Shown here one piece after another: positions 2,463-20,700 of a stretch of DNA of 21,083 nucleotides. The stretch covers positions 1 to 21,083 of the forward strand of contig JWZX01001727.1 in the NCBI GenBank assembly GCA_001275005.1, in the 5' to 3' direction. Source of the DNA: Chrysochromulina tobinii (Eukaryota; Haptophyta; Prymnesiales; Chrysochromulinaceae). The notes beneath the pieces are model-generated. The model was given only the letters and a program-made list of their open reading frames with translations. It was not told where the DNA came from and did not search any database. Every line of letters starts with the position of its first letter. Positions within the stretch are counted from its first letter, which is position 1. Both the position numbers and the translations under genes were made by a program.

Positions 2463-3387
2463 GATTAGCGCTTGTCTCGAGACAGAAACAGAAACGCCAA
2501 AGGATCCTGCCACCGCCGTGGTGAGCACTTGCATGCGCCGTGGTGAGCACTTGCATGCGCCAAAGGATCTTAAAAGGATCCTGCCACCGCCGTGGTGAGC
2601 ACTTGCATGCGCCGTGGTGAGCACTTGCATGCGCCAAAGGATCCTGCCACCGCCGCCAGCACAGCCATTCAGAGCTCTCCTCGCATGGATGATCAGAGAG
2701 GAAGCATTCCAGTAATGACTCCAGTAATGACTCGCGTCATCGTCCGCTCCGACGCACCCTCCTACCGGTACGACCATTGGGTACGACACGCGCGCCATCG
2801 CGGGCGCCATCTTCGCTCGTTGGGACCGTAACGGGCGCCGTCGTGAGCGCCCTCTTTCACACTCGACGGGTGACGGGGGTGGCGACCCGACGCACACTGT
2901 GGTCGTCGGGGCCGCGATGGGGGGCCGTGACTGTGAACAATGGTCCTGAGGGCGCGTCTGCTGCGGGAGTAGCTGTGACTGTGAATGGTCCTGAGGGCGC
3001 GTCTGCTGCGGGAGGCCACGCAGACCACGCAGACACAGGTTTGTCCGGCGACCCATCCGGTGCCCGAGACGGCGCCCCAACCAGTGCCCGAGACGGCGCC
3101 TCTTGCCAGACACAGGTTTGTCCGGCGCCCCGGTGGAGGTCCTGGTGAAGGTGGGGGGCGCCGTCTCGGGCACTGGGTGGTGCGGCGACCCGGTGGAGGT
3201 CCTGGTGGAGGTGCCAGCGGGGGGTCATGGACACGGAGAGACGAGTCACGAGCTACCAACCGTCCTGACGGACCATCGGCAACGCTTACGCGGCAGAGCG
3301 GAGGACCGTGCTGGGGTTGCATGCAGGGTGGAATGCGAATGCCACGTGATGAGCCGGGAGACCGGCCCTGCCGTGCGCCTTCTCGTA
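1813..3387. repeat. Segmental duplication, two copies in direct orientation
   Basis: Copy A (about 1813-2417) and copy B (about 2632-3387) share most of their sequence, including CGCCAAAGGATC at their start, GACTGTGAATGG and GCCACGTGATGAGCC. The offset grows from about 820 to about 970 bases because copy B carries roughly 150 extra bases of CCGGTGGAGGTCCTGGT and GACGGCGCC repeats near 3060-3200. Frames present in copy A are broken in copy B, so at least copy B is probably intronic or non-coding. Confidence 0.75.
2515..2632 (-). mobile_element. Cluster of four introner-like cores without splice tract
   Basis: Four copies of the core found at the 3' ends of several introns lie here, read on the minus strand as GCATGCAAGTGCTCACC. 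On the plus strand they start near 2521, 2543, 2595 and 2617, in two tandem pairs. Each pair sits between copies of AAAGGATCCTGCCACCGCC, resembling a target duplication of about 20 bases. The pyrimidine tract and CCCCACAG that follow the core in real introns are missing. Confidence 0.6.
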
Positions 3388-3425: not shown

Positions 3426-3950
3426 ATGATAAAATCTCCGATGATGCTCGTCATCTTTGTGGTGCTGTGCAGTCCGAGTGCGCTCGCGGTCTCGCTCGCT
3501 CGCTCCCCGCCGCACCTTCCCCCACGCACCTCGACCATAATCATGGGACGGAAGCCGGGCGTGATGGACCCATCGGACCTGCAAACATTCGTCACGAATG
3601 CGGGCGCTGGCCTCATCGTCGTCGACGTCCGCAATCCTGACTTTGCGGTCGAGCCAGGTGATGGCAAGAGCAATGAGAAGGCTCCGATTGCGGACTGCGG
3701 CGGTGCGCGCGCGCGCGCTGTCAACGTCATCTACGACCGCGGCAGCAGCTCCATGGATTTGTCCTCGATCCCACAGGCATGGATTGAGGCCGGCGGCGGA
3801 AAGGCCACTGTGCCTGTGATCACGCACTGCGGTGGCGGTGGACGTGGACAGAAGGCGAAGGAGTTTCTCGAGGCGAACGGCTTCGGCAATGTCGTCAATG
3901 GCGGCGGCCCGGAAGACGACGAGTGCTGGCAGGTCTTCGGCTCCAAGTGA
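3426..3950 (+). CDS. Single-domain rhodanese-like protein, secreted or organelle-targeted
   Basis: An intronless frame of 174 residues. Rhodanese domains carry sulfane sulfur on a catalytic cysteine or serve as redox or phosphatase-like folds. Seen: a hydrophobic leader at residues ~6-22 (MMLVIFVVLCSPSALAV) typical of a signal peptide, then a short basic stretch. The domain follows: GLIVVDVRNPDF near 62-73 corresponds to the conserved DVR strand, and THCGGGGR at 133-140 is the active-site loop, with Cys135 followed after four residues by Arg140. AKEFLEANGF...NGGGPEDDE is the usual last helix and strand. In an alga with secondary plastids such a leader plus basic segment could be a bipartite plastid signal; that is inference. 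The ATG at 3426 fits the leader best. A second Met pair at residues 6-7 is possible. Confidence 0.85.
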   Translation: MIKSPMMLVIFVVLCSPSALAVSLARSPPHLPPRTSTIIMGRKPGVMDPSDLQTFVTNAGAGLIVVDVRNPDFAVEPGDGKSNEKAPIADCGGARARAVNVIYDRGSSSMDLSSIPQAWIEAGGGKATVPVITHCGGGGRGQKAKEFLEANGFGNVVNGGGPEDDECWQVFGSK

Positions 3951-4470: not shown

Positions 4471-6706
4471 TCAACCCAAGCGCTGCCGTTCCAAATCGGG
4501 CGTACCGGTATTCGGGTCTCGATGCGGCGCCCCATCCGGTGCCCGATACGGCGCCCCATCCGGTGCTCGATACGGCGCCTCATCATGCGGCGCCCCATCC
4601 GGTGCCCGCGACGGCGCCTCGCCTCCAAGCGCCCGCGACGGCGCTCCATCGAGCGCCTCGACCCAATTCTCAGCGGCCCGCGACGGCGCCTCGCCAGACG
4701 GTGCCCGCGACGGCGCCTCGCCAGACGGTGCCCGCGACGGCGCCTCGCCAGACGGCGCCCGCGACGGCGCCTCGACCCGATTCTCCGCGAGCACGAGGTG
4801 ACATGCGGCCGCCGCCTCGATCCCCACAGCGAGGCCGCGCTCGTGCACGTACTCCGCCTGTGCCGTCCCTCGCGTCGGGCGCGGCTCGCGCACCTGTGGG
4901 GAGATGAAATGGCGCCGTGGTGAGCACTTGCATGCGGCCGGCGGCGCCGTCCCACGCGTCGTCGGGCGCGGCTCGCGCGTGCCCAATCGCGGTGCATGCA
5001 AGTGCTCACTATGGCGCGGCTCGCGCGTGCCCAATCGCGGTGCATGCATGTGGTCATCAGAGGCCATCAGTGGGTCGTCAGTGGATGCGCGCACCCAATC
5101 GCGGTGCATGCATCGAAACACGCCGAGCCAGAGCTCTTGGGGCAGGTAGCCGCAATCGCCGACGGACTTGCGACGGCTCGAGAGCAAAAGCATGCGCACG
5201 ACTTGACGAAGCACGGGTGGCGCGTACCTGTGGGGAGAGGAAGAGAAAGAGAGAGGGGCGGGGCGCCGTGATGAGCACTTGCATGCGCGGGGACGACCTG
5301 ACGACGCACAGAGGGCGGCGCGCACCGGTGGGCCGATTCGGACCACGGCCGCTCCAAGTACCTGATGAGGGAGGCAATCAGCAGGCATCACCAGTGCCCA
5401 TCCATCGCAATCAGCAGGCATCGTCAGTGCCCATTCATCGCAATCAGCAGGCATCATCAGTGCCTATCCATCGCAATCAGCAGGCATCATCAGTGCCCAT
5501 CCATCGCAATCAGCAGGCCACAGCCCTCTCCCGACCATCGGCCGTTGGGGAGCCTGCGAGTGCATGCATCGGCCGTTGGGGAGCCTGCGAGTGCATGCAT
5601 CGGCCGTTGGGGAGCCTGCGAGTGCATGCATCGGCCGTTGGGAAGCCTGCGAGTGCATGCATCGGCCGTTGGGAAGCCTGCGAGTGCATGCATCGGGTGT
5701 GCACAGCCTGCACGCACAGGTAAAAGTGGTTGGCGTCGTACGCCTCGCGCTCCAAGGTCATCTTTTGGATCGCCTGCCGCAGCGCCTCCGTCTCGGGCGA
5801 GAGAGTGCTCGACACGGCGCCACCGGGTGCTCGACACGGCGCCTCCGTCTCGGGCGAGAGAGTGCTCGACACGGCGCCACCGCCGCTGCTGCTGCCGCCG
5901 CTGCTGCCGCCGCTGCCGCCGCTGCTGCTGATGCCGCTGTTGATGCCGCCGCCGCTGTTGATGCCGCCGCCGCCACCGCCGCTGCCGCCGCAACCGCCGC
6001 CGCCGCCGATGCCCTCAGCGTCTCCCTTGCCCGAAGTCACACAGGCCGAGGGTAGGTGTGAAGTCACATAGGCCGAGGGTAGGTTGCCTGCCACGTAGCA
6101 CGCGAGGCGCCTCGCCGCCTTTGCCCGCTCGTCGAGCTGCGCCGCATAGTGCGCGAACACACGATACGGCGTCAGATGCTCTGCCCGCATGAGCTCGAGT
6201 GCGTCGAGCCCTCGGTGATTCGGGTCGAGCCCGTCGTGGTTGCGGGTGAAGGGGTCGGAGCCCGCGTCGATGAGGTGGAGCGCGACGGCCTCGTCGCCTT
6301 GGCCGGCCGCCACGTGCAGAGCCGTTCCCACCCCGGGCGCCGACGCTGTCACGTCGGCTCGCGCGCTGAGCAGCAGCTTGACGCACGGCGCCGAGCGGGC
6401 CCGCGCCGCCAGGATGAGGGCTGTCTCACCCTTGCTGGTCCGTGCGTTCACGTCCGCGCGGTGCTGCAACGCGCCGAGTAGCAGGTCGCTCTTGCCCTCC
6501 CTGGCCATGTCGAGCATCAGCTGCGTCGGCATCTCAGGAGACGCGAGGGACTGCAGCAGGGCCGGATCGCGCATGGCTGCGCGGATGGCTTTCTCGATCT
6601 CGCCGTGGGACTTGGAGATGAGCTCGTCCTTCGTGAGCGGCGTCTGACGGTCGCCAATGAGCGCACGCTCGAGCGCAACGGCGAATGCGGAGTTGATCCC
6701 GTCCAT
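4471..6706 (-). CDS. Ankyrin-repeat protein, four exons
   Basis: Exons by frame: 6706-5718, 5361-5326, 5227-5095 and 4893 to a stop at 4471; all phases agree and give 526 residues. Residues ~72-174 hold about three ankyrin repeats (ADVNARTSKGETALILAAR, GVGTALHVAAGQGDEAVALHLIDAG), a protein-binding scaffold. A Gly/Ser-rich linker (~231-277) is followed by a duplicated 19-residue segment starting GAVSSTLSPETEA. Across the introns the protein reads NHFYLYLERPWSESAHRYAPP, then VLRQVVRMLLLSSRR and LPQELWLGVFR, a short helical motif I have seen C-terminal to ankyrins in algae but cannot name. Exon 2 is only 36 nt. Exon 4 has 27-nt in-frame repeats, and another frame (to 4362) could be the true tail. 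Start chosen at MDGINS, where the coding-like sequence begins. Binding partners are unknown. Confidence 0.75.
4678..4775 (-). repeat. 27-bp coding tandem repeat
   Basis: About three and a half copies of a 27-base unit containing GACGGCGCCTCGCCAGACG lie in the last ankyrin-gene exon and encode repeated EAPSRAPSG. Further diverged RAPDGAP units continue to about 4530. Confidence 0.8.
4894..4936 (-). mobile_element. Introner-like 3' splice module, ankyrin intron 3
   Basis: Read on the minus strand this is GCATGCAAGTGCTCACC, then ACGGCGCC, a pyrimidine tract and CCCCACAG, directly before exon 4 (GTGCGCGAG...). The CTCAC inside the core fits a branch site at a normal distance from the acceptor. 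The whole intron is 4894-5094. Confidence 0.75.
4966..5048. repeat. Two copies of the joined exon 3/exon 4 junction inside intron 3, with an inverted core between
   Basis: At 4966-5000 and 5014-5048 the plus strand reads GGCTCGCGCGTGCCCAATCG..., which on the minus strand is the end of exon 3 (CGCGATTGG) fused to the start of exon 4 (GCGAGCCGCGCC). Between them, at 4993-5016, lies an introner core in the opposite orientation (GCATGCAAGTGCTCAC on the plus strand). Confidence 0.7.
5228..5286 (-). mobile_element. Introner-like 3' splice module, ankyrin intron 2
   Basis: Minus strand: GCATGCAAGTGCTCATC core, GGCGCC, a long CT-rich tract and CCCCACAG before exon 3. The intron (5228-5325, 98 nt) begins with a diverged copy of the first ~38 nt of exon 3: GTGCGCGCCGCCC against GTACGCGCCACCC. 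Confidence 0.8.
5377..5520. repeat. 33-bp tandem repeat in ankyrin intron 1
   Basis: About 4.3 copies of a 33-base unit containing AATCAGCAGGCATCATCAG and GTGCCCATCCATCGC. It lies wholly inside the 356-nt intron (5362-5717). Confidence 0.85.
5541..5695. repeat. 31-bp tandem repeat in ankyrin intron 1
   Basis: Five copies of a 31-base unit containing ATCGGCCGTTGGGGAGCC and TGCGAGTGCATGC, next to the 33-bp repeat. The last two copies share a G-to-A change, so copies were added after the array began to diverge. Confidence 0.85.
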
Positions 6707-7554
6707 GGCTCCTCGAGGGCTTCGCGGCGCGGGATCTGAACGCGAGAGTTCGAGGAGAGGGGGGACCAGAGTGTTGGCGTGCGTGAGCGCGCGCGCGCGA
6801 GAGCGCGTCCACAGCGAGCGCCCGACACGCGCGTGAACGTTAACACGACCCCACCCTTTTTTATCACGGACAGGTCGTTGCACTCCAGGCTTGGGCTGAT
6901 CCTGAGGACTGTTTTCGCTCACCAGCCTGTCGCTCGATAGCGTCCATCGACAGAGGTTTTTGATTCGGTATCGGCATGTATCGGAGGCATTATCGGAGGC
7001 AGCCACGGAGCCACACGGGTAAGGGGCTGACCTACCCCCTTAACACGGGGCGAGCCGCGCTCCGGAGCGGGCGTCTCTGTGGGAAATTCATTTCCGAAAC
7101 GAGACTAGCCAACGCGGGGGCTGCGGATCGTCATCGTGGGCGTCCCGTGAGGTTCCCCTCACCCGACGTAAGCGCCGTGACTCGTGTTGATCTTTTTGCT
7201 ACAAAACTTTCATCCCGCCTGGGCCTGCAAAACGAGTCGCCCAGGTGCCGCTCTCTACACATGTACACAAGTCATGCGTGCCGCTCTCAAACGTATTCGT
7301 ATTCGGATAGTACACTCTCTCAGAGACAGAGTAAACCTCCACTGTATGTCAACTCAATTGTGTAATGTGGCCTGCGCGCGGTGCCGCCGGCGCTCTGCTT
7401 GCGGCGGTGCCACTCGACCACGGCCTTGCCACTCCGCGGGGGTACCACTGAAGCCTAGATTGTGAGTCCTCATCAAGGCTCATCAAGGCTCATCATGGCC
7501 TTGCCACTCCGCGGGGTCCCACTGAAGCCCAGATTGTGAGTCCTGTCGCCATCC
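6707..7554. other. Intergenic region upstream of the ankyrin gene, with a 49-bp direct duplication
   Basis: This is the 5' flank of the ankyrin gene and the 3' flank of the SOUL gene. About 6820-7400 contains no gene that I can support. At 7422-7470 and 7496-7544 a 49-base sequence (GGCCTTGCCACTCCGCGG ... AGATTGTGAGTCCT) is duplicated. Three copies of CATCAAGGCT-like repeat separate the copies, which is the same architecture as many introns of the window. Confidence 0.6.
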
Positions 7555-8148
7555 TCAGGCCGCGTCGTCCGTCACTCGCACCATCAAGTCGCTCACGCGG
7601 AACAGCGACGGGAACCACCAAGGGTACCGGTGCATGACCACAACCGTTGAGAGCTTCGTGCACTCCAGCCTGCGACACAGGTCATTGACGAGCGGCAGCA
7701 TCTCTGCCTTCTGCCTCGCGAGCCGGTCGTCATCTGCCACCGAGCCGTGGAAGTGCCGCGCGAAGACGCGCTGCGGCGCAAGCTCCTTGAGCTGGATGGC
7801 CTTGTTTCGCGGCGCCGGCGCTGCAGAGAGCTCCATGGGTAACAGCGCCGCCATGGTCCAGATGGCGTCGGCGGCGTCGACCTTCTCGGCCAGCAGCGGC
7901 AACGCGAAGCGCGCAATCTGCTCCTCGCGAAAGTATTTGTTCAGCAGCTTCGAGCCCGTGCTGAGCGCCTGCTGCGCGTTGCCCGAGACGCGGACCTCTG
8001 CGACGACGAGGCGCGGGTAGCGGCGCACCTGGAGCACGCCGTGCTGGCCATCGGCACGGTACGGCGGCAATATACTGCCAAAGTGGCGCCGCGTCGAGAT
8101 CACGAAGCCAATGATGAGCGCCGCGAAGAAGAGCAAATACAATAGCAT
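7555..8148 (-). CDS. SOUL/HEBP-type haem-binding family protein, membrane-anchored
   Basis: An intronless frame of 197 residues. SOUL proteins bind haem or related tetrapyrroles and occur in cytosol, plastids and eyespots. Seen: residues 1-18 (MLLYLLFFAALIIGFVIS) form a membrane anchor or signal. The SOUL fold follows: VLQVRRYPRLVVAEV matches the conserved first strands, STGSKLLNKYFRE the first helix, the central strands include WTMAALLPMEL, and ARHFHGSVADDDRLARQKAEML is the conserved 'F.G..' strand and helix. The C-terminus (VVVMHRYPWWFPSLFRVSDLMVRV) is the usual final strand region. The length is normal for the family plus an anchor. The substrate is unknown; family membership is well supported, haem binding is not shown. 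Confidence 0.82.
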   Translation of the reverse strand: MLLYLLFFAALIIGFVISTRRHFGSILPPYRADGQHGVLQVRRYPRLVVAEVRVSGNAQQALSTGSKLLNKYFREEQIARFALPLLAEKVDAADAIWTMAALLPMELSAAPAPRNKAIQLKELAPQRVFARHFHGSVADDDRLARQKAEMLPLVNDLCRRLECTKLSTVVVMHRYPWWFPSLFRVSDLMVRVTDDAA

Positions 8149-8441
8149 CGTCGGAGAGCAACAAGGACCGCAAGGATCGCGTCAAGGAAGGTCTGCCCCA
8201 ACAAGAGAGCCGTAATCGGTACAGTAATGTGAACAGTTTTCGTCCTGGCTGTGAACCGCCTTGCACCATTTTCGGTAATCGTACAGTAATCAACCACGCA
8301 CCGTCAAAGGTCGGACGCACATGCACGCAGTGACGCGACGCCATCCCTGTGCGCATCATCTTCCACAAAGCCGGTTGTGCTGTCCAGAAGAGCAGATTCA
8401 GCGCGCTGTTATGGGCGCTCAGAAGAGCGGCCCGGGCAGAT
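8149..8441. other. Intergenic region between SOUL and transporter genes
   Basis: Short spacer between two minus-strand genes, holding the 3' flank of the transporter and presumably the SOUL promoter. Near 8395-8465 an element (AGATTCAGCGCGCTGT followed by GGGCGCT) occurs twice in tandem around the transporter stop codon. Nothing else is recognisable. Confidence 0.4.
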
Positions 8442-11264
8442 TCAGCGCGCTGTGCTGGGCGCTGAGACCGGGCGCTTGGCCAGGTGCGCTTTGGGCGTGT
8501 CCACGGCCGGCTCGTTGCAGCTCCCTCCGCGCGTCATGTCGGGCGCCGCGTCGCTACCGTCCTCCTCCTCATTAACGGAATCGAGCTCCACGTGCCCCGC
8601 CTGCCCCGCGCCGTGCTGAGCGACCGTTGGGTGGCCGTTGAGGCTGAAGCCGCTGCCACGTCGATGCATCGACGCCGACTCCTCCTTGCCGCTGAGCGTA
8701 ACCGACGGCGGCCAGAGCATCGAGGTCGACTCCTCCGCATCTGGGCTTTCACACCGATGGGTGTGAACAGCCTCGTCGGTGTAGGCTTCCAGCCAGAGGC
8801 AAAGCACGAAGGCACCCGACATGAGAGCGGCCGACACGAGCCAGGGGGCGCCCGGCAGGACGCTCTCCTGTGGGGAGGAGAGGGCGCAGTGGTGAGCACA
8901 TGCATGCGCTCGGCCTGTTCGGGTTCGGCGCCTCAAGCGGGCTCGCCAAGGGCGCCGTGGTGAGCACATGCATGCGCTCGGCCCGTTCGGGTTCGAGCGC
9001 CCGGCACGACGCTCATCTCCCAGCGCGGGAGCATCAACGCAATCAGACGCAATCAGACGCCCGGCACGACGCTCACCTCCCAGCGCGGGAGCATCCACGC
9101 GAACGCCATCGGCCCGAAGCCCTCCATTAAAGCCTTCATCGACGCGAGCACTCCCTGCGCCCACCACAGCGCGCGTGAGGCAATCATTACACTCATCTTC
9201 GACCAAGTCTAACCAAGTCCAATCAAGGCCAATCAAGTCCAATCAAGGCCACTCAAGGCTACTCCAAGCCACTCAGAGGCCACTCAGAGGCCACTCAGAG
9301 GCCAATCAAGGCCACTCACCTGCGCCTCGCCTACAAGCGCATGGGGTACGACTTGAGAGCAGAGTGACGAAACCGTGGCGAAGCCCCCAACAGACAAGCC
9401 GAGCAGCGCCATCGCCGGGTACAGTACCTGATGAGGGACGCCATCAGCAGCCACTCAGAGCCGATCCATCGTCATCAGCCGCCGTCCACTCACCCATAGG
9501 TCCGACGCGAAGGCAGATGCAATCATCCGCAATCATCCGCAATCATCCGCAATCATCCGCAATCAGCCGCCGTCCACACACCCACAGGTCCGACGCGAAG
9601 GCGTAGAGCAGCTGCGACATGACCGCGCAGGCGAAGCACCGACGAGCGATCTGCGGCTCGGACAGCCATTTGCGAGCCAGGCGCAGCCCCACAGACTGCG
9701 AACAAATGAAGCGAGTCATCAGCGAACAGATGAAGCGAGTCATCAGCGAACAGAGAACAGATGAAGCGAGTCATCAGCGAACAGATGAAGCGAGTCATCA
9801 GCGAACAGATGAAGCGAGTCATCAGCGGCGAGTTGCATCCAAAAGTGGAAACTCGATGACAAGCAGCCGTCATACGATGCAATCAGTCGCAATCAGGCGT
9901 AATCAGGCGCAATCAGGCGTAATCACCTGCGAGATCGTCGAGACGAGACCAAAGAGCGCGAGCTGCGCGGCGGTCTGCGGGACAGTGAGCTTGAACCGTC
10001 GGCGCGCGCGCATAGACGCAATCAGGCGCAATCAGGCGCAATCACCTGCGGGACAGAGAGCTTAAACCGTCGGCGCGCATAGACGCCCTTATTCGAAAGG
10101 AAACCCCACAGCGCGAGATAGAAGCAGAGCACGACGGCGGCGAGCAGCCGCATTGCCTTATTAGTACGGATCATCGCGAAGCTACCAAATTAGGAGTGGG
10201 TGCACCGGAGGAGTCGAAATCAGTGGTCATCAGTGGCCATCAGCGGCCATCAGCAGCCATGAGTGGCCATCAGCGGCCATGAGTGGCCATGAGTGGCCAT
10301 CAGCCGTCATCAGCCGTCATCAGTGGCCATCAGGGGTCATCAGAGGTCATCAGTAACCACCTGCCGAATGGGTTCGCGCGCCGAAGAAGCTCCCGCATAG
10401 GTCATCAGCCGTCATCAGGGGTCATCAGAGGTCATCAGTAACCACCTGCCGAATGGGTTCGCGCGCCGAAGAAGCTCCCGCATAGGTCATCAGCCGTCAT
10501 CAGGGGTCATCAGAGGTCATCAGTAACCACCTGCCGAATGGGTTCGCGCGCCGTAGAAGCTCCCGCATAGGCGGCGGCGGCGGTCGATCGGTTTCACGCA
10601 TCGCGAGCGTGGCGAAGAGAGCGTTGACAATGCTGATCCACAGGCACACTTGGAAGACCGCATGGCTGCCGTAGCGCTCGTTCACCACAGCGCCAATGGG
10701 AGGGCCAATCAAGTAGGCGCCGCCGAGGCCACAGCCGATGGCGACGCCGTAGGCTGAGGCCCGCTCGTGCGGCGGAACGCTGTCGGCGATGTAGGCGAAG
10801 GCGAGCGGGAAGGTGGCCGCGAACAGGCCCGATAGGCCCACGAGCACCAGGTGCACTTCGAGCGAGAAGCCGAGCCCGAGCGCCGCGTTGGGGCATGCCG
10901 TGCCGAGGACGGTCAGGAGGAAGAGCCACTTGCGGCCGACCGCGTCGGAGCACGAGCCGAGCGCGGGCGACGTGAGGAAGGCGAGCACGCCCTTGGTCGT
11001 CTGCGCCCAGCCCACGAGCGAGTACGAGCGCGCCCCGAACTCGTCGTTGATGATGACCGGCAGCACGCCGCCAGGCAGAGAGACAACGAGGAAGTCGAGG
11101 AATAGGATGGGCACCACCAGAGCCCATCGCTGATTGTAGTAGGCGCCGCGCGCGCTGCGCGGCTCGCGCATGATCCCGGCCAGTGGCGGCGTCGGTGGCG
11201 GCGAAGGTGTCGGCGCCAATGGAGGCGGTGGGGCGTTTTGCATGAAAAAGGTCGGATTCCCCAC
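8442..11264 (-). CDS. Major facilitator superfamily transporter, seven exons
   Basis: Exons: 11264-10531, 10181-10046, 9974-9927, 9695-9582, 9427-9320, 9154-9077, 8867-8442; every junction is in phase and the product is 547 residues. After a Pro-rich cytosolic N-terminus, residues ~48-222 give TM1-6, with the MFS motif A at 102-113 (LGSCSDAVGRKW) between TM2 and TM3. A Pro/Arg-rich central loop ends NPFGSFAMIRTNKAMR. Exons 2-7 give the second half: RLLAAVVLCFYLALWGF, LALFGLVSTISQSVGLRL, VLYPAMALLGLSVGGF, GEAQGVLASMKALMEG, WLVSAALMSGAFVLCLWL. The C-terminal tail is long and acidic. Layout resembles the tetracycline-resistance/MFSD14 (HIAT1) branch of sugar or small-solute carriers; substrate unknown. 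A start at residue 8 or 32 is possible. The gene diverges from the ZZ-protein gene. Confidence 0.88.
8868..8975 (-). mobile_element. Tandem pair of introner-like modules, transporter intron 6
   Basis: Two copies of the core (minus strand GCATGCATGTGCTCACCAC) lie at 8951-8975 and 8868-8907. Only the second has the CT tract and CCCCACAG that serve exon 7. Each copy is preceded by CCGAACCCGAAC-type sequence, so the module was duplicated together with its 5' neighbour. The intron is 8868-9076. Confidence 0.75.
9000..9090 (-). repeat. Joined exon 6/exon 7 sequence duplicated inside intron 6
   Basis: On the minus strand the end of exon 6 and the intron start (CTCCCGCGCTGGGAG|GTGAG) are followed 57 bases later by CTCCCGCGCTGGGAG then ATGAGCGTCGTGCCGGGCG. 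Exon 7 itself starts GAGAGCGTCCTGCCGGGCG. The internal copy is thus an exon 6-exon 7 junction with no intron, and in it the donor GT has become AT. Confidence 0.75.
9705..9830. repeat. 24-bp tandem repeat in transporter intron 3
   Basis: Five copies of a 24-base unit containing GAAGCGAGTCATCAGCGAAC fill most of the 231-nt intron (9696-9926). The last one supplies the acceptor GTTCGCAG on the minus strand. Confidence 0.8.
9975..10088 (-). repeat. Exon 2 end duplicated as the acceptor of intron 2
   Basis: The 71-nt intron 2 (9975-10045) is about 29 nt of GTGATTGCGC repeats followed by a ~42-nt copy of the end of exon 2 (TCTATGCGCGC, CGACGGTT, TGTCCCGCAG). Exon 2 and the intron therefore both end in TGTCCCGCAG. 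Confidence 0.85.
10215..10565 (-). repeat. 10-bp minisatellite and triplicated exon-end/donor segment, transporter intron 1
   Basis: About 10217-10360 is an array of GGCCATCAGC-type decamers (sense strand TGATGGCC). From about 10350 an 85-bp unit with the end of exon 1 (ACCCATTCGGCAG on the minus strand) and the intron start (GTGGTTACTG) occurs three times, with candidate donors at 10360, 10445 and 10530. Only 10530 continues the open frame from exon 1. Confidence 0.85.
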
Positions 11265-11542
11265 ACCCGGGCGTCAGTCACACAAAGGTGTTAACGTTCA
11301 CAAAGGCCGATCCCAAAGGGAGCAGCTCGCAGTTTGGCAGGTCACTGATTGATTTGACTTTTATTGACTTGAATTGAGAGCTCATTGCAGTTGAGGGGTT
11401 GTGTTTAGCAGTGTCGCTCACGAGGAAGAGTTGCGAGTTGACGACAGGGTAGAAATCAAGCAGCCCATAGCGAGCATTGGGGACATTTGAGGCGCTGTTG
11501 TGCAAAACCAAGCTCCACAAAACATAATGCGAGCGAGCGAGC
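11265..11542. promoter_or_regulatory. Short bidirectional intergenic region
   Basis: About 280 bases separate the transporter start (minus) from the ZZ-protein start (plus), so both promoters must lie here. It is AT-richer than its neighbours around 11340-11410 and free of the intron repeats. No specific motif is claimed. Confidence 0.45.
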
Positions 11543-12679
11543 GTGCACACAACACAACACCCTTGTGCCCTCGCTCTCGTCTCGCCCGAAGCGCTCATCG
11601 CCAATATCATAGAACTGATCTCGATGCCCCACACGAGCTCCGCCGAGGTGGTGCTCCCCCTGACCTTTCATGACATCTTCGTGCAGAGCCCTGATTTGCT
11701 CGAGAGATTGCTCGGAGTCAACCCCTTCATCATGGAGCGCGAGGGTGCGACGACGGGAAATGCCCCTGCCTCCGAGCTACATGTGCAGACCCCCGTGCGC
11801 GCGAGCAGCGCGTCCGAACCCTTCTACCAGGGATTCCATCCGGGCATCTCGTGCGACCGCTCGGGCAAGAACCCGATTGTGGGCATGCGCTTCCACCTGC
11901 GTGGCAGCGAACCATCGTACGACCTGTGCCAGGCGGAGTACGATAAGCTGGACGACGCCGAGAAGGGCCTGTACGAGGCGATTCCACCGCCGCCGCCCGG
12001 GCTCAAGCTCGAGGGCGGCTCGCTGGAAGGCGCCGCGGGCGAGTACATGGGTGAGTACCGGCTCGCCGTAGACGACCGAGTCTGGCCGCTCCAAGCGGGC
12101 GAGGCTGGCTGGCGAGGCGGGCCCATGCTTGTAAACGGCCGACCCGCGTGGCGGCACACGACGCATCTCACGCACTGGCTCGCATTCGATGGAGTCAACT
12201 GGCGTGGGCAGCCCGAGGCCTCACTTGGTCAGAAGAGTGGCGTTCTGCTGCTCTCGGACGCAGCTGCTTTGAGCCCGGATGCGAGCTCTGCGACATGGTG
12301 GCTCGCGGCCAACGGCCCGGGCACTGCGGGGGCTGCGCAGCCGCAGCTCAAGTGCATCCCTTGTGCTGCACCGCCTCTGTCCCGAGTCGAGCTACCGGTC
12401 AAGAACTTTCGCGGCCCCTGCGCCGCCCGCTGCAAGCCACTGGCGCCGTGCTGCTGCGTCTCAGCGGACGGCGAGGCGATCTTTGGCTGTGTGCCCACGG
12501 ATCGGAACTACACTCTGCCGGCGTGCCTCCACATGGCCTTGTGCCCGCAGCTGGGGTGCGATCCAAATGGGGGCTTTGGGTTCACGGATTACAAGGATCT
12601 GTGCCTCGCGACTTTGATTACCACTCTCCTTGTTTCCTGCCAGCAAACTCATGATGAGTGTTGTGTTACGCATTGGTAG
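11543..12679 (+). CDS. Degenerate ZZ-type zinc-finger protein
   Basis: A single frame of 378 residues. Residues ~96-146 read FYQGFHPGISCDRSGKNPIVG, RFHLRGSEPSYDLCQAEY and KLDDAEKGLYEAIPPP, the pattern of ZZ fingers (protein-protein interaction). Several zinc-ligand cysteines are replaced: CDRS for CDxC, and HLRGS where CxxC is expected. Such degenerate ZZ modules are frequent in algae and stramenopiles. Residues ~172-255 (VNGRPAWRH, HWLAFDGVNW, GQPEASLGQ, DASSATWW) form a module I associate with haptophyte hypothetical proteins, function unknown. The C-terminal ~110 residues are Cys-rich (about 17 cysteines), suggesting disulphides or metal binding. The ATG at 11543 gives the longest product; 11624 (MPHTSSAEV) is a good alternative. 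The last ~30 codons could read past an unseen splice site. Confidence 0.7.
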   Translation: MHTTQHPCALALVSPEALIANIIELISMPHTSSAEVVLPLTFHDIFVQSPDLLERLLGVNPFIMEREGATTGNAPASELHVQTPVRASSASEPFYQGFHPGISCDRSGKNPIVGMRFHLRGSEPSYDLCQAEYDKLDDAEKGLYEAIPPPPPGLKLEGGSLEGAAGEYMGEYRLAVDDRVWPLQAGEAGWRGGPMLVNGRPAWRHTTHLTHWLAFDGVNWRGQPEASLGQKSGVLLLSDAAALSPDASSATWWLAANGPGTAGAAQPQLKCIPCAAPPLSRVELPVKNFRGPCAARCKPLAPCCCVSADGEAIFGCVPTDRNYTLPACLHMALCPQLGCDPNGGFGFTDYKDLCLATLITTLLVSCQQTHDECCVTHW

Positions 12680-13444
12680 CTACCACAGGGATTCGAACCG
12701 CCAGCCTCTCCTTCCGCTCGGCTCGGCCCCTGCCCCGCGCGCCCCCGGTGGGCTCCCACCCCTGCCCCGCGCGCCCCCGGTGGGCTCCCACCCCTGCCCA
12801 CCGCGAGCGCCCTTCTTTCAACCCCTCCCCCTAAAGAGTGCTCCACCCGGCTCGCTGCGCTCAGGGTCTGTTTCTGGGAGTGGAGATGTGGCGACTTAAC
12901 GGGGCGGTTCTGCGAGCAGCCGGGCTGGTTGGGGGCATGCATGAGGCTATGCATCGAGAAAACTTTCGATTGCTGCTGCTGCGGCTGCTTTCTACCCCCA
13001 CCCCCTGTTATGCTTTAAGCAGTAGCTGCGACAGCCTCCCTCGGACCAGCCGCAAGAAGCGAGCTTTCGCCTATGAAGAATGAGCGGCGGCGCTGCATCT
13101 GCGGGCGGGTGTGTTCCCGCCGTGCATGCGCCACCGCCGCTCAGCTTGCGCGACCTCACGCTGTGAGATAGCTGAGCACCGCAGAGATACATGTACTACA
13201 TCATACATACAGCAGATAAATTTCGGACCGTCACGCGTCAGAGTCAGCAGGCTCCGCAGGCGACAGGGTGTTCACACGCGCACGCACTGCCAAGTGTGTG
13301 CTGGACGCCCTGCTGAACACCTAATCCTGCTCTGTACCAACCTCTAAATACTGCGGCCGAGTGTGAACAGCTAATTCACAAGGGGGTACTGGTACAGTAC
13401 AACAAACAGTAGAGTCTCTCAATGCGAATTTCCCCGAGTCAGTG
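12680..13444. other. Intergenic region with GC-rich repeats and a hairpin
   Basis: This is 3' flank of the ZZ gene and upstream region of the next gene. About 12725-12795 holds just over two copies of a 33-base unit (CCCCTGCCCCGCGCGCC, CCCGGTGGGCTCCCAC). A GGATTCGAACC at 12689-12699 resembles a tRNA T-arm but does not fold. I see no gene; 13150-13440 is ordinary sequence and probably contains the promoter of the gene at 13445. Confidence 0.45.
13082..13142. other. Imperfect inverted repeat (hairpin)
   Basis: GAGCGGCGG (13082-13090) pairs with CCGCCGCTC (13134-13142), and GGCGGG (13104-13109) pairs with CCCGCC (13116-13121) around a six-base loop. The middle section pairs only partly. It lies outside any gene. 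Confidence 0.5.
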
Positions 13445-15274
13445 ATGGCGAACGCGATGGCGGGCACCATGGACCCGGCACTTGCAGCAGCGCTCCGTGT
13501 CAAGGAGGCAAAGGCGAAAGCGAAGGCGCACGCAAGAGCGTCGGCGACGAGTGCGATGAGTGGCGCTGCTGCGACCAGCGCGACGAGTGCGATAAGTGGT
13601 GGCGCTGCGGCGACCAGCGCGACGATTGGCACGGTCGCGCCTGGAAAGTTTTTGCTCCTGATCCTGCTTCGTGGGGCGGCCTTCCGACACGGCAGCCGAA
13701 CATCGAGCCGCGACAGGTTGACTGCATACAATGCAGTCAACCCGGCGTCCGGTGAGCAGCTAGTGGCCTTAACGTCCTTGCAGCAAAATGTCGTCGTGCC
13801 GGCGACCGCCATCGGGTGGCGTGTCGGCCTCGCCATAGATGTGGTGCTGCCTCCTCAGTTGCACGGCGCATGGCAGCAAGTCAAGAGCGCGAGTGGGCTC
13901 CACGCGGCCGCCGTTGAGCGCCTCAGCGAGAATCTCCGGGCGAGCTCGCAATCCGAGTCCTTCGCGAATAGTCTCGAGTGGGCCTCCCGAACCATGGCGG
14001 CTGAGGGGGAGGCTCGCTCCGCTGTGTTGATCACGCGCGTGGACCTCGTGCTACGACGGCCGCTGCCGCTCCCCGCCCCGCCCGATGTGCCCGGAAAGCT
14101 CATCATGCCATTCCGCGAGATCAAGGCTAAGTCCCGCGAGGGGCGGCAGGGCTATGGCCGTTGCCTCGTCTCTTGGAGCGATCCGATCATCTACGTGCCG
14201 AGGTGTCGGATAAAGCTTGATTGCGCTTGATTGAGCTGCCTCGTCTCTTAGAGCGATCCGATCATCTACGTGCCGAGGTGTCGGATTGCGCTTGATTGCG
14301 CTCGATTGCGCTCGATGGCCACTATACGTGTGTCTGTGGGTGTACCACGCATTGCCATCGATGACCTCTGATTGCATCCCTCATCAAGTGTCTGTGGGTG
14401 TACCACGCATTGCCATCGATGACCTCTGATTGCATCCCTCATCAAGTGTCTGTGGGTGTACCACGCATTGCCATCGATGACCTACCTCATGCACTACTCG
14501 CCGCTAATGACCTCCCTCATCAGGTCCTTGGAGAGCCGTGTCTTGACGGCCCTGAGGGACCCTTTACAATCGTCACGGCATGGCGAGAGCTTGCATTGGA
14601 TCGTCGCTGGGCCCACGCTGCCACCCTGGGTCGACGACCCTTCCCAGGTGGAGCGCCGTCCTGAGCGCGCCGTACTGAGCGTCCCTGATGAGCCATCTCA
14701 TTCCACCCTGGGTCGACGACCCTTCCCAGGTGGAGCGCCGTCCTGAGCGTCCCTGATGAGCCATCTCATTCCTAGGTGGCCGAGCATGCAATCTGATCGC
14801 CTCTGGAGCGCCGTCCTGAGCGCGTCTGAGCGTCCCTGATGAGCCATCTCATTCGCAGGTGGCCGAGCGGCCGTCGAGTGCGAGCTCGAGTGCGAGCTCG
14901 AAGTCGAGCTCAAGTGCGAGCTCAAGTGCGAGCTCGAGTGTGAGCACGAAGTCGAACACATTCGCATCCGGCACATTTGACGAAACCGGGCACGGCATGG
15001 CGAGTGCGAGTACGAAGTCGAGCACAAGTGCACTCGGCGTTCCGTCGGCCCGGGTGAGTGCCATTGATGACCATGGATGGCCTCGCTCATCGAGATGAGT
15101 GCCATCATGACCTCTGATTGCATCCCTCATCAGGTGATGGCCTTCGCGCCCGATTGGTTCGGGGGATCGGACTCATCGCTCGGATGGAACCCGATGTACT
15201 ATATCATCGGGCGCGAGCAGTCGAGGAGGGTGGAACCGCGACCGAATTGCTCTGGCTACTACACATGGCTCTGA
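13445..15274 (+). CDS. Unknown conserved-looking protein, four exons
   Basis: Exons 13445-14202, 14524-14647, 14859-15053 and 15134-15274 join in phase to 405 residues. The first ~65 residues are Ala/Lys/Ser-rich. A globular part follows: GKFLLLILLRGAAFRHGSR, then VVVPATAIGWRVGLAIDVVLP, then VLITRVDLVLRRPLPLP and SDPIIYVPR|SLESRVLTALRD across intron 1. The strand-rich 'LLRG..FR' and 'TR.DL..R' elements recall uncharacterised algal proteins that I suspect are glycosyltransferase-like. That is a guess, with no catalytic motif seen. Exon 3 is a Ser/Lys-rich linker of GAGCTC-type repeats. Its length (195 nt) is a multiple of three and both flanking introns are phase 0, so skipping it keeps the frame. 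Exon 4 ends NPMYYIIGREQ...CSGYYTWL. An ATG at 13445 follows a GTG. Confidence 0.72.
14150..14285 (+). repeat. Exon 1 end and donor duplicated
   Basis: TGCCTCGTCTCTT(G/A)GAGC, CGATCATCTACGTGCCGAG and GTGTCGGAT occur at 14163-14212 and again at 14237-14286. The first copy's donor (14203) is used in the model. The second (14278) would put in-frame stops into the product. Confidence 0.8.
14331..14482 (+). repeat. 58-bp tandem repeat in intron 1
   Basis: Two full copies and a partial copy of a 58-base unit (starts at 14331, 14389 and 14447) containing TGTACCACGCATTGCC and GATTGCATCCCTCATCAAG. The end of each unit is one base change from the CCCTCATCAG acceptor used at 14523, so the array looks like copies of a splice acceptor region. 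Confidence 0.85.
14600..14858 (+). repeat. Exon 2 end and acceptor duplicated in intron 2
   Basis: CACCCTGGGTCGACGACCC, TTCCCAG and GTGGAGCGCCGTCC appear at the end of exon 2 and again about 80 bases on. GATGAGCCATCTCATTC occurs three times, followed by CACCC, then CTAG|GTGGCCGAG, then GCAG|GTGGCCGAG. Two competing acceptors precede the same GTGGCCGAG. Confidence 0.75.
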
Positions 15275-15668
15275 GAGCGCCTAGTTTGGGATTTGGGATA
15301 GTTTGGGAGTTGGCGTTTGGCGGTTGCGGTGTTCGGGTCGCGTCGCGAAGGATCGAGGTAGTGCCATACTACAAGCGACGACGGCTGAGCGCACGACGGC
15401 TGAGCGCGCCGTCTCGTTCGTGGGGGGCGCGCAAACAAAGGGAGCGGAGAAGTGTACTAGTTAGAGAAGCTGGTGTTCACGCTGGACGAAGGTCGACTCC
15501 CTCGACTCCCCTGAAATGTTGATCGTATTCTGAGCGGGCAGTAACAGTGCCGTAGAACCTGTTGGCGCGTCTGTCGTAGTAACGTTCACATTCCTCACAC
15601 CGGAACTCGGCACACTCGCTGCAGCCTACCCTGCAACGTGCAAAACCGAGCGACCGTCAATTGTTTCG
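15275..15668. other. Intergenic region between two plus-strand genes
   Basis: 3' flank of the preceding gene and presumed promoter of the CUB-like gene. It contains a short duplication of ACGACGGCTGAGCGC (about 15376-15405). No other feature is seen. An upstream exon encoding a signal peptide for the next gene could be hidden here. Confidence 0.35.
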
Positions 15669-16922
15669 ATGGATGGCGTCTCGCCGCCGCCGACGCCGCC
15701 ACCCTGTGTGGGCTTCAGCTCGCCGCCATTTACGGTGATGAGCTCCAGCCCGTCTGTGTCGACCTGTTTCATTAGCAGCCCTAAGATCAGCCCCGACCTC
15801 TACGGGGTTTCGACCTATTGCGTGACAGACGGCACCAGAGGCTATTCTAGCAACGAGTGGTGCAACATCCGGATTGACCAGAATGTGACGCTGCACCGCG
15901 CGTTCTTCGAACTCGAAAGTGGCTTCGACTGGATAGCCCTCTATGCTCCAGGCGTCACGGTCCCAGCGTCGAGGCCGTACTCTGCCCCCTCATTCGCATG
16001 GTCTGACAACCGACATCCTCCGGTCTGGGTGAATGCCTCGGAAGGCTCGAGGCTGATCTGGTCGACCGACACTTATTCCGCGCGCGGAGGGTTCGAGCTC
16101 TGCGCCGTACCTCACTGCGCCGTACCTCAATCCACTACATCACGACCGCCTCCCTCGCCCCCGCCGTGTGAGCCGACAGCAAAGGAGGCGCATGAGCAGG
16201 CGGGGAACTTCAGCTTGCTATTTCTCTCGCCGCTCTTCGTCGTGATGCTGATCCTGTGCACCATCCACCTGAATCAGCTGCACATACGACGCAAAGCTCG
16301 TCTACAACTCAGGAGGAGGATTGCTTCGCGCGCGCGTCAGATCTCAGCGCCGTCACCAGCGCGTCACGCGGGGCGCGCTGATGTCGTGCCGGCGAGAGGT
16401 GTGCCCGCGGCGGCGCGCGCCGTGTCGGCGAGAGGTGTGCCCGCGGCGGCGCGTGCCGTACCGGTGAGAGGTGTGCCCGTGGCGGACGCGACCGCGGTGG
16501 TCGTGCAGATGGGCGTGCCCGCGGCGGCGCGCGCCGTCGGACTCGGTGTGCCCGCGGCGGCGCGCGCTGTCGGACTCGGTGTGCCCGCGGCGGCGCGCGC
16601 TGTCGGACTCGGTGTCGAGCCGTCGGACATTCATGGCAATCAGTGGCAATCAGCGGAAATCAGCGGTGTGGAGGAGCGCCGTGTTGGGCTCGATTTCTAC
16701 GTCGAGCCTGTCTTCGGCATACCGGTGACCGCACTCAGCGGAAGATCACAAGACAATCAGAGACAATCACCTGTCTACGGCCAGCCGGTGAGCGCTGTCT
16801 CGAGCGCCTTCGCCGTCCCCGCGCCATACGCAACCGCTGGCAGCGCTGACTCGAGCGCCTCGCCAGCTGGGATTACGCCAGGGATACACGTTGCCCATGA
16901 CACTGTGATCACAGTAGTATGA
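15669..16922 (+). CDS. Single-pass membrane protein with CUB-like ectodomain
   Basis: A frame of 417 residues. Residues ~33-150 (TYCVTDGTRGYSSNEWCN, FFELESGFDWIALY, GSRLIWSTDTYSARGGFELC) follow the pattern of CUB-like domains: cysteines near both ends, an aromatic-acidic 'F..E.G.DW', and a closing 'I.W.TD....GGFELC'. Two NxT/NxS sites suggest an extracellular or lumenal face. A Pro-rich stalk leads to one membrane helix (LLFLSPLFVVMLILCTI, ~183-199), followed by a basic stop-transfer sequence and a long cytosolic tail with RGVPAAARAV / GLGVPAAARAV repeats and YG.PVSAV-like repeats. No cleavable signal peptide is seen at the chosen ATG, so a 5' exon may be missing. Two AATCAG-rich stretches (16636-16664, 16752-16772) look like intron repeat but keep the frame open. 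Confidence 0.7.
   Translation: MDGVSPPPTPPPCVGFSSPPFTVMSSSPSVSTCFISSPKISPDLYGVSTYCVTDGTRGYSSNEWCNIRIDQNVTLHRAFFELESGFDWIALYAPGVTVPASRPYSAPSFAWSDNRHPPVWVNASEGSRLIWSTDTYSARGGFELCAVPHCAVPQSTTSRPPPSPPPCEPTAKEAHEQAGNFSLLFLSPLFVVMLILCTIHLNQLHIRRKARLQLRRRIASRARQISAPSPARHAGRADVVPARGVPAAARAVSARGVPAAARAVPVRGVPVADATAVVVQMGVPAAARAVGLGVPAAARAVGLGVPAAARAVGLGVEPSDIHGNQWQSAEISGVEERRVGLDFYVEPVFGIPVTALSGRSQDNQRQSPVYGQPVSAVSSAFAVPAPYATAGSADSSASPAGITPGIHVAHDTVITVV
16393..16617 (+). repeat. About 30-bp coding repeats in the cytosolic tail
   Basis: Repeats of GTGCCCGCGGCGGCGCGCG spaced 30-39 bases apart encode VPAAARAV at least five times. All spacings are multiples of three. Confidence 0.8.
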
Positions 16923-17425
16923 AGGTTACCCCTACCCGCCTCGTTAGTGGCGTCCGGTGAGACCATAAAACAAACTTTTCTACTGTGACGTGTGATCCCG
17001 CGTGCGTAAGCGGATTCGACTCGCCGCACTTCCTGCATCCTGGCCGCGGCGGCCGTTGGAGCGTTGCCTGCCCCGCCAACGAGCAGTTCCTCGTTCCAAA
17101 CGCGTCCATTCACGCGTCCATCATGGCACGGGGCAGGAGCCTTATACCCAATACCGGCTTACGCGTTTCCGTATAATGACCGAGCCAGATGCGTGGCGAT
17201 GCGCGGATCGAGAGTGTATACGGGCTATCGAGGTACAGGACGAGGTGTACCCCGTACACAGTCACAGACTACAGACGGTACAGAGTCGCGGTGTAGCGCG
17301 TCCCGGGAACGCACGAAGGTCAGGAGAAGCGACATAACGATATAAGGACAGTCAACGTACAGCCGTAGCGCCTCACCGACCTAGCGGACGCGTCGCGCGC
17401 TCGTGCCATAACACCGACGCGCCCG
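16923..17425. other. Intergenic region between converging genes
   Basis: The plus-strand CUB-like gene and the minus-strand plastid-protein gene converge here. I see only short frames and no repeat array. Confidence 0.4.
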
Positions 17426-17770
17426 CTAGGCCAACCTGTGCCTTTCCAACGCTTGCCTCCAGAAGTGTGTACCTCTCTCTGCCCCTGTCAAGCTGCCTGG
17501 GAGGCCTCCATCTTGCCCCGCGCCCGGCCGTTCGTCAAGCTGTTCGTCCGGCCGCGGTCCAAGCTGACGGTCATCAGGCGTCATTAGGCGTCATCAAGCG
17601 TCATTAGGCGTCATCAGGCGTCATTAGGCGTCATCAGGCGTCACTCGGCGTCATTTGGCGTCATTTGGCGTCATTCGGCGTCATTAGATCATCTGGCGCC
17701 ACCAGGCGTCATCCGACGTCATCCGGCGTCATTAGATCATCTGGGGTCATCAGGCTGTGTCCGGCCGTTT
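17426..17770 (-). repeat. 10-bp minisatellite flanked by a duplicated C-terminal coding segment
   Basis: About 17571-17755 is an array of GTCATCAGGC/GTCATTAGGC decamers. On the minus strand the sequence before it encodes DRRLGKRPD and stops at once, while the sequence after it encodes DRQLGPRPDEQLDERPG and stays open to a stop at 17426. An intron or an alternative C-terminus is likely. Confidence 0.65.
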
Positions 17771-20700
17771 TCCAAGCCGACGGTCAAAGTCGTCGAACGG
17801 GTCACCGACAGCGGCCGCGTTCTCATCCACGCTCCGGCTCGTCGAGAAGGTCGTGGACGCGCCCATACCTTGACGGCCACCCTTACCGTCCCGGGCGTCG
17901 GGCGTTGCCGGCGCGCGCATGAAGTTCCGCAGCTTTGGTGCGAGTGCGAGCGCGGCTTGGCGCTTGGCCTTCACCTGTGGGGAGAAGCGAGGGCGCCGTG
18001 GTGAGCACTTGCATGCTGGGAGCGCGGCTTGGCGCTTGGCCTTCACCTCGCGCCGCAGGAACGCGATTTACCCGCGTCGCTCCTCATCAATGGTCATCAA
18101 GGGCAATCAAGTATCATCAAGTGCAATAAAGTGTCCTCAAGGGCCATCACCTTGCGCCGCAGGAACGCCAGTAGCCCGCGTCGTTCCTCAGGCGAATAAG
18201 TAGCATCCGCCTCCTCACCCGCCTCCATCCCCGCCCTCGTCATCGCCGTCGTTACCGCATTAGGCAGTGCATCGGTCGTGGTCGCACCCGGCGGTGCCTC
18301 ACCCATACTAGGCAAGTCGGACCCGCTGCCCAACAAGGCGCGTGCCCATGCCGCCCGGTTCCGATTACGCTCGCTGATGGCGCGATTCACCAACCGATTG
18401 CGCACCGCGCGCACCACCGGTACCGTGACGAAACCGGCCGCATAGACGAGGAGCGGCACGTACCTGATGGCAATGGTCATCAGAGCCCATCAGTGGCACT
18501 CAGAGGCCATCAGTGGCGATCAGAGCGCGTTTATCACATACAATCGAGGGCCAGGCCAGCAGTGGCACTCCGTCGCACTCAGCATGTACTCCAGCATTCA
18601 CTCAGCATGCACTTCGCATTCACTCAGCATGCACTTCGCATGCACACTCAGCGGTAGTCAGCTTGCAATAAAGGGCACGCCGATGGCAACGCGATGGCAC
18701 TCAGCATGCACTCCGGATGCACTCCGCAAGTAATCAGCATGCAATCAGCGTGGCAATCAGCATGCGACCAGCATGCACTCCGGTGCGCGTACGCTTTACG
18801 CAGCAGCGCGATCATCGGGCCGGCGGAGCCCAGGTACGCCGTCGGCACGCCACTGACGGACGCAAGGATCCTGTGGGGAGAGGGGAGGGCGCCGTGGTGA
18901 GCACGTGCATGCAAGGGAGCGATCCGAGGGCGCCGTGGTGAGCACGTGCATGCAGCCGCCTTCCCGAACGCCTCGAGTCGCGTACACTCGCGGCGCACCT
19001 GCCAATGTATAGGACGCCCACCAGGTTCAAGAGGCCGAGTACCCCTGCGAAGCCCAGCTGCGTCGGTGGCGCGGTGGAGAAGGGTTGCGGCAACTCCATT
19101 AATGCGATGCCGCCTCCCGCGCCGCTGACGTCCTCTGCGGAAGAGAGGCCACCTCCACTGCTGCGAAGGGCGCCCGTAACGGCGCGGCCGTTGGAGAGGT
19201 CGAGATTCCCCACAGGTGCAATCTCCCCGAGCGAGGCGTAGCACGTGGGCTGACCGACGCCGCCGCCGTCGTCGGCTTCAGGCACGTAGAGACCAAACGG
19301 GAGCCCATCACGATCATCAGCCACAACAATCGCCTCCTGCCCATCCAGCAGCAATCAGAAGCAATCAGTAGCAATTAGCGGCAATCACACTACAAGCGCA
19401 TCCTGCCCATCCAGCGGCAATTAGATTCAATCAGCAGCGATCAGTGGCAATCAGCTGAAATCCGCGCCATCCACACCAATGCATGCCAATGCATGCCAAT
19501 CCATGCCAATGCATGCCAATCCATGCCAATCCGCGGCACCCACCTGCCCAATGAGGCTGCGCGCGATCGCCTCGTTCTGCGCCCCCTGCCCCCCCACTGA
19601 ACGCGCGGGAGCACTTGCGTCAAGACGACGCGATCGCCAAGACGAGGTCGCCATCCTGGGGCGGCTCCTCAAAGCCGAGCGCCGACCGCACAACGTCCGA
19701 CGCGCCCATTCCGACGCGAGCGCCGTCGCGGGCGCCGTCGGTGCTCGCCGTGGGCATGAGGTCGGGGAAGCGGTAGATCAGGTCGCCCTCTTCGGTGACG
19801 ACCGGTTCGCCGTTGAATTGCAACAAGAGGGGTAGCATCCAGTCCTCACGCACCTGATGAGGGAGACCATCAGGGGCAATCAGAGATGCAATCAGAGGAG
19901 CATCCAGTCCTCACGCATCAGTGGCCATCAGTACCTAGGGAGGCCACCAGAGATGTCATCAGAGATGTCATCAGAGAGGCCATCAAAGATGCAATCAGGG
20001 AGGTCATCAGTCCTCACGCACCGGAGCGCCCGGCCGCTGCGCCTCCTCCGCTGCTCGTGATGAGGGAGGCAATCAGCATGCAATCAGAGGTGCAATCACG
20101 CACCGGAGCGCCCGGCCGCTGCGCCTCCTCCGCGAATTGCTCCGGACTCATCTCCGGCGCGAGGAGCGGCGCGAGCTGCTCCGCCGTGACTGCGCCGCCG
20201 TTGGCCCGTATCAGGGCGGCGGCGGCGGCGGATGTGCGCTGTGCGAGGTTCGCGTTCGGGTTGCCGTCGCCGAAGAGGAGGGAGAAGCAGCTCTGCGAGC
20301 AAGGCAATTAGGGAGGTCATTAGCAAGGCAATTAGGGAGGTCATTACTCATTAGCAAGGGAGAAGCAGCTCTGCGAGCAAGGCCATTAGGGAGGTCATTA
20401 GCAAGGCCATTAGGGAGGTCATTAGCAAGGCCATTAGGGAGGTCATCAGGAGAAGCAGCTCTGCGAAGTAAGCAATGGATGGCCAGGAGCGCCGATGAGT
20501 GACAAGCAGGGACGATGCGAGCTGGGTCATCAGAGGGCCATCCGAGGGCCATCTGAGGTCCATCAGAGGTCCATCAGGCCATCGGAGAGGCCCTCGGAGA
20601 GGCCATCGGAGAGGGCCAACAAAGGGCGATCACCTGCAAGAACCCCTTCTCCTCCGGCGCGTAGCCGCCATAGTAGCCATACGGGCGCGTCGAGTAGTAC

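Follow-up and report, generated by a model that had tools for sequence, protein, structure and literature searches.

Introns of one contig share their 3' ends

The bulk origin of introns is an old open question, to which introners are the best current answer. The DNA analysed here (the window, 21,083 nt of Chrysochromulina tobinii, contig C760 of the assembly searched) raises it in the form of introns in apparently unrelated genes that end alike, and the question is how they came to do so. Five introns with a common 3' module had been pointed out in a first-pass annotation, and their coordinates are all right: the word CCCCACAG occurs on the minus strand of the window exactly five times, at 4894, 5228, 8868, 17975 and 18871, and each occurrence is preceded by an exact match to a 17-nt core, GCATGCANGTGCTCAYC, starting at 4935, 5286, 8907, 18016 and 18912, respectively. 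The genes and features concerned are listed below.

3540-3950, plus strand: rhodanese-like gene, with a Pfam match just below cut-off
5510-7039, minus strand: ankyrin repeats (Pfam)
7555-8181, minus strand: SOUL haem-binding gene (Pfam)
10500-11273, minus strand: MFS transporter (Pfam)
2499..2643, minus strand: two 74-bp tandem units with four exact cores (2536, 2558, 2610, 2632), without acceptor
4894..4978, minus strand: cassette with core 4919-4935 and acceptor 4894; direct repeat with copy 1 at 4938-4978 and copy 2 in the exon at 4854-4891
4994..5058, plus strand: two one-mismatch cores (4994, 5042) in a 48-bp tandem repeat
5228..5325, minus strand: 98-nt intron with a diverged first copy of the target-site duplication (TSD) from 5325 (GTGCGC), core 5270-5286 and acceptor 5228
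8868..8975, minus strand: tandem core pair (8891-8907 and 8959-8975), acceptor 8868
17975..18046, minus strand: 72-nt intron, the clearest example, made of TSD copy 1 and cassette
18017-18046, minus strand: TSD copy 1 of this intron, beginning GTGAAG, a 29/30 identical direct repeat of the sequence from the acceptor
17975-18016, minus strand: cassette of this intron, with core 18000-18016, then ACGGCGCC, a pyrimidine tract and CCCCACAG ending at 17975
17945..17974, minus strand: TSD copy 2 of this intron, 30 nt with which the downstream exon begins
18871..18953, minus strand: tandem core pair (18896-18912 and 18937-18953), acceptor 18871
19854..19864, minus strand: acceptor of a second cassette (TCCCTCATCAG); a repeat of 31 nt (score 20.0) starts 1 nt past it

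The five introns had also been assigned to three unrelated genes. This is borne out in part: ankyrin repeats and an MFS transporter are recognised, and the pieces tested around 17.5-21 kb gave no Pfam match. The best named protein relative is an MFS transporter of Haptolina, taken to be H. brevifila, of the order Prymnesiales (68% identity over 80%), and an ENA protein is 96% identical; the host is accordingly a haptophyte, probably of the Prymnesiales. In an Rfam search of the window nothing reached the gathering score, and a match in 17940-18060 (6.1 bits, E 0.72) was dismissed as chance.

Abundance and polarity of the core

The assembly searched comprises 53,154,812 bases in 2,253 contigs and has a GC content of 63.3%; the genome description of Chrysochromulina tobin gives 63.4% and 59 Mb (PMC4580454). 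The core matches the assembly exactly 1249 times (614+635) and the reversed pattern, taken as control, not once. CCACAG follows 8-38 nt after the core in 689 of the 1249 copies (327+362), as against 16 occurrences (10+6) of CTGTGG at equal distance upstream, several of which are tandem repeats of a single place, so that core and acceptor show a polarity of ca. 43 to 1. Genome-wide, the core is continued by ACGRCGC in 884 copies, and the order core, ACGRCGC, CCACAGGT is found in 488. When neighbouring copies spaced 150-6000 bp are considered, 102 of 106 pairs lie on the same strand. These counts bear out the earlier suggestion of an introner-type family, the core being neither rare nor devoid of enrichment at acceptors and in gene sense.

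Neighbours share the variant at position 8 more often than expected (0.79 vs 0.60, p 0.003), and not above expectation that at position 21 (0.83 vs 0.745, p 0.093); with contig C8 removed, an exclusion chosen post hoc, the variant-sharing test gives p 0.003. Eight exact cores occur on the minus strand of locus L039 (C8:1-10000) within ca. 2.7 kb, several as tandem pairs, in a gene region encoding a JmjC domain. The same cassettes recur with equal spacing on contigs C101 (7364/8371) and C235 (2611/3618), which probably represent haplotypes or a recent duplication, for which reason the cassettes there are to be counted once.

Many copies combine a duplicated piece of exon with a 3' cassette

The anatomy of the copies was studied at 125 distinct exact-core sites, drawn from stretches around the first matches in contig order and from the window, a sample that is not random and includes some tandem and duplicate-contig copies. 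Judged by sequence, 100 of these sites have an acceptor and 25 do not. At the former, the exon after the acceptor was aligned with the 100 nt preceding the core; repeats scoring at least 14 were found in 67 of 100 copies, and among 2964 mismatched pairs in 35. The repeat begins 0-1 nt past CAG in 56 of the 100 copies. The earlier description, in which the introns share their 3' end and take the 5' half from the host exon, agrees with these alignments, and they show in addition what the host-exon half is: 15-45 bp of the exon behind the acceptor, present in duplicate. Similarity among the cassette introns is confined to their 3' half, the 5' halves being locus-specific TSD copies.

Of the 56 duplications, 55 measure 15-45 bp and the remaining one, a tandem case, 59; without five tandem or duplicate-contig copies (n=51) the range is 15-45 bp with a median of 30. 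GT stands at the start of the upstream copy in 47 of 56, GC in 5 and other bases in 4, so that this copy would supply the 5' splice site; the base that precedes it is G in 45 of 56, with AG in 26. Core and acceptor are 35-48 nt apart in 55 of 56. Intron length comes to 63-98 nt in 54, the other two having 125 and 145 nt. The distance between the two TSD copies, taken modulo 3 at 87 acceptor-bearing sites with repeats from across the genome, is unevenly distributed, with 3n+2 in 45, 3n in 30 and 3n+1 in 12.

Dependence of the repeat on the core was examined in the window together with L039-L058 (129,900 bases, loci picked for holding cores), where a core lies upstream of 48 of 58 CCCCACAG words. 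Long repeats starting at the acceptor accompany 31 of the 48 CCCCACAG with a core vs none of the 10 without one.

In the window, the duplication is best seen in the 17975 intron. At 4894 the repeat is clear but diverged (83% over 41 columns with one gap; score 22 vs a 99% null of 13), and no 5' splice site was identified. The repeat of the 5228 intron (33 nt, 79%, score 14.0; 15.0 in a second measurement vs a 99% null of 22.5) is weak when taken alone. For 8868, a candidate TSD copy at 8997-9014 is 17/18 identical and falls below its null (15.5 vs 45), while a direct-repeat comparison of the flanks of the 18871 intron revealed no recognisable TSD. Repeats above threshold are missing from 33 of 100 acceptor-bearing copies, which we read, 8868 and 18871 included, as an effect of age or rearrangement. 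The plus-strand cores at 4994 and 5042 are antisense to the adjoining cassettes.

Ends of the inserts

The left end of the cassette is ragged: the core is preceded by CCTT in 17 of 125 sites, TGCCTT in 9, GACCTGCCTT in 5 and TGATGACCTGCCTT in 4, long-left copies with TGATGACCTNCCTT number 46 genome-wide, and one CCCCACAG intron (L055, 2366) starts within the core itself. In acceptor-bearing copies the insert ends exactly at CAG on the right; several acceptor-less ones are shorter and stop before CCCCACAG. Acceptor-less sites having a repeat number 25, up to two mismatches being allowed; among acceptor-less inserts, those of L107 and L139 are both 24 nt long, with repeats of 30 and 44 bp, respectively, and that of L048 has 34 nt. 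Inverted repeats between the insert ends reached a score of 6 in none of the 56 copies (null 2.3%). RNA folding of the cassette and of two introns was no better than that of shuffled sequences (z -1.30, 0.08 and 0.20).

Domains and paralogues cross the junctions

Out of 52 conceptually spliced peptides, 10 were picked by eye as conserved-looking, and in 8 of these a single Pfam domain spans the junction, namely Kinesin, DSPc, Ion_trans, JmjC, SNF2, CRAL_TRIO, GST_C_2 and Rubis-subs-bind (Rubisco LSMT substrate-binding). In the other two, a ClpB-like AAA lid and a UvrD helicase, the domain match starts past the junction. The spliced phosphatase of L046 (599 aa) aligns unbroken at the junction with P0024 (97% over 100%), P0025 (82% over 100%) and P0026 (95% over 70%). 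In a BLAST comparison of seven joined exon flanks against the genome, their own loci were recovered as two pieces overlapping by 31-49 nt, which provides an independent measure of the TSD. Insert-free paralogues cross the junction at 3 of the 7 sites, with none among the matches listed for the other four: the phosphatase has them on C2204 (85%) and C2168 (83%), the kinesin on five contigs (69-73%) and L040 on C1014 (75%). The copies thus comprise many introns that are similar in their 3' half only, in unrelated genes (different domains at 8 sites), and that lie within coding sequence at new positions, as seen from the domains in 8 of 10 and from the paralogues in 3 of 7.

An open-frame test with 150-nt flanks found 30 of 50 spliced vs 24 of 50 unspliced stretches open; shifting the donor left 24-25 of 50 open, a weak test in a GC-rich genome. 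From reading frames and domains the cassette introns are presumed to be spliced out, and the core, with its CTCAC or CTCAT, is a plausible branch site.

A second cassette has the same architecture

Another cassette, TGATNNCNTCCCTCATCAGGT, has 1101 matches in the genome and none when reversed. It is built of 10-bp CTGATTGCCT-like units and its sequence is unrelated to that of the first. The sampled loci contain 22 usable TCCCTCATCAG sites, with GT next in 16, and repeats scoring at least 20 occur at 9 of the 22 (null 11/1733); they are 22-50 nt long, some lie in tandem arrays, and eight of the nine start 0-1 nt past the acceptor. Two unrelated cassettes with one architecture indicate that the architecture belongs to the process rather than to one sequence.

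Many presumed introns of the window consist of tandem units of 10-12 bp, CTGATGGCC or CTGATTGCC in gene sense (17570-17755, 9214-9318, 10219-10571, 18479-18780, 20298-20632 and others), and in places longer units also include duplicated parts of exons (85 bp x 3 at 10316-10571). Such introns may be related to the second cassette and have arisen by its expansion. A scan that used no motif but looked for AG|GT preceded by a repeat gave 139 of 907 vs 0.7-6.8% for other dinucleotides; it is not used as proof because most of the matches sit in 10-bp repeat arrays.

How the introns may have arisen

The anatomy makes it very probable that we are dealing with an introner family in which a short cassette and a long TSD together make each intron. 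The cassette of ca. 35-48 nt, composed of GCATGCANGTGCTCAYCACGRCGC, a tract that varies and is mostly pyrimidine, and TCCCCACAG, would have entered a coding exon, 15-45 bp of the target being duplicated alongside. The first copy of the duplication, starting with GT, would act as the 5' splice site, while the cassette would bring the 3' splice site and, in all probability, a branch site; the second copy would be the intact exon, so that removal of the intron would restore the old message.

As to movement, we tentatively favour a process in which intron 3' tails are copied from an RNA template into staggered breaks, in the style of target-primed synthesis. The reasons are that left ends are ragged, as if truncated at the 5' side, that right ends are flush in the copies read as spliced, that the duplications are long and variable, and that two unrelated tails share one architecture. 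Insertions of non-LTR retrotransposons (LINEs and SINEs) have long variable TSDs and ragged 5' ends, and the cassette resembles them in both respects, although no poly-A tail or reverse transcriptase was seen in the stretches analysed. If copying began at the very 3' end of an RNA, inserts that end short of CCCCACAG (L107, L139) would not be expected. A general form of this reading is somewhat more speculative: the 3' tails of introns, of which at least two unrelated ones are concerned, would be copied independently of their sequence into staggered exon breaks with a fill-in of 15-50 bp, so that any intron could seed half-borrowed introns without a conventional transposon, a class that would be invisible to screens asking for similarity at both intron ends.

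The inserts that stop before CAG are better explained by break repair with filler, in which staggered double-strand breaks with long overhangs are filled in, a fragment of an intron tail is captured by end joining without a dedicated mobile element, and selection for splicing afterwards retains inserts that start with GT and end with CAG. Ragged left ends, right ends that vary in acceptor-less copies (24 nt at L107 and L139, 34 nt at L048) and the common architecture of two unrelated cassettes are all in keeping with it, and such repair has been described for intron gains in Daphnia (PMC4202315). However, the repeats described there are of 4-12 bp as against 15-45 here, and the same filler used more than 1000 times calls for a source that is copied repeatedly; we regard this explanation as rather unlikely. 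Transposition of a non-autonomous, MITE-like introner by a transposase with an unusually wide stagger would account for the high copy number and the TSDs (56 of 100), and it has precedents in Symbiodinium introners, where one splice site derives from the TSD, and in the TSDs, terminal inverted repeats or both reported for 59% of 130 introner families (PMC9860276). Yet none of the 56 copies has an inverted repeat between its ends, the TSD is neither short nor of fixed length, inserts go down to 24 nt and their ends are ragged. A fixed-stagger transposition is the least likely of the three processes and an improbable one. The variable TSD and the 5'-ragged copies expected of retroposition are both present.

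Two further explanations were weighed. Tandem duplication of an exon segment (the AGGT model), with the shared 3' part spread later by gene conversion or selection, agrees with duplicated segments that begin with GT and have AG before them in 26 of 56, and with the whole-unit tandem arrays at L058 and L048; but the repeat stops at or a few nt from the core, unlike in a plain duplication, which places the core between the TSD copies, and CCCCACAG without a core has repeats in 0 of 10 cases. This makes the model very unlikely. A pyrimidine tract and CAG belong to the general splice consensus, and convergence or chance likeness of unrelated introns could produce that much; it could not produce a 17-nt core present 1249 times vs 0 when reversed, or a polarity of 689 vs 16, by which this explanation is refuted and left with a negligible probability.

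A viral source of the cassette was also considered and rejected: the core occurs in 28 IMG/VR stretches, 27 of which are without cassette extension and acceptor. The other, L072 (IMGVR_UViG_3300027760_000958), is a 4.5-kb contig filed as viral with cassette and acceptor at 4495-4543, within its last 60 bases, preceded by repeats resembling those of the alga; for four of its ORFs no Pfam match exceeded the cut-off, and the contig may be chimeric, with algal DNA joined on in assembly. A second viral scan yielded 14 stretches, of which L072 alone was examined.

Comparison with known introners and intron gains

If the proposed anatomy is correct, the birth of each intron is directly readable as a duplicated piece of host exon plus a small 3' cassette, and dozens of insertions become datable by the divergence of their TSDs, with intron-free paralogues for comparison. 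The system would also make accessible to tests a mode of insertion whose target duplications are unusually long and variable. The 2022 census required the similarity of introns to set in close to the 5' boundary as well as to the 3' one (PMC9860276, section 15), and the cassette introns have it at the 3' side only; half-borrowed introns are thus expected to fail this filter and would probably have been missed. A screen for half-introns could shift estimates of introner frequency.

Introners with long TSDs were not found in a search of open-licence literature. The earlier introner families are described with TSDs of 3-9 bp (Gozashti et al. 2022, PMC9860276), and a survey of 213 introns gives repeats near splice sites of 4-30 bp with 71-100% similarity and a mean of 11.4 (PMC11782384). 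Among individual systems, the introners of Symbiodinium microadriaticum come close in that the element carries the 3' splice site and the TSD gives the 5' splice site, but they are described with a 4-bp TSD and terminal inverted repeats (PMC9860276), as opposed to the variable TSDs of 15-45 bp found here, where no inverted repeats were found. Family 5 of the Chrysochromulina sp. TARA MAG has in common with the cassette introns a haptophyte host and a TSD without terminal inverted repeats, although by its description the TSD is of 4 bp and it is the 5' splice site, at the opposite end, that the element carries (PMC9860276). The introner elements of Amoebophrya are also repeated introns of a protist with direct repeats at their borders, and differ by direct repeats of 3-5 nt, inverted repeats of 8-20 nt and non-canonical splice sites (PMC7789003). 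In the staggered-break introns of Daphnia, adjacent exon sequence is directly repeated at the opposite end of the intron as it is here, but the repeats are of the shorter kind mentioned above and the account speaks of no single shared cassette (PMC4202315). Taken together, the comparison with these named systems indicates that the cassette introns follow the known splice-site logic of introners, but with a different duplication, no inverted repeats and a similarity that is limited to the 3' half.
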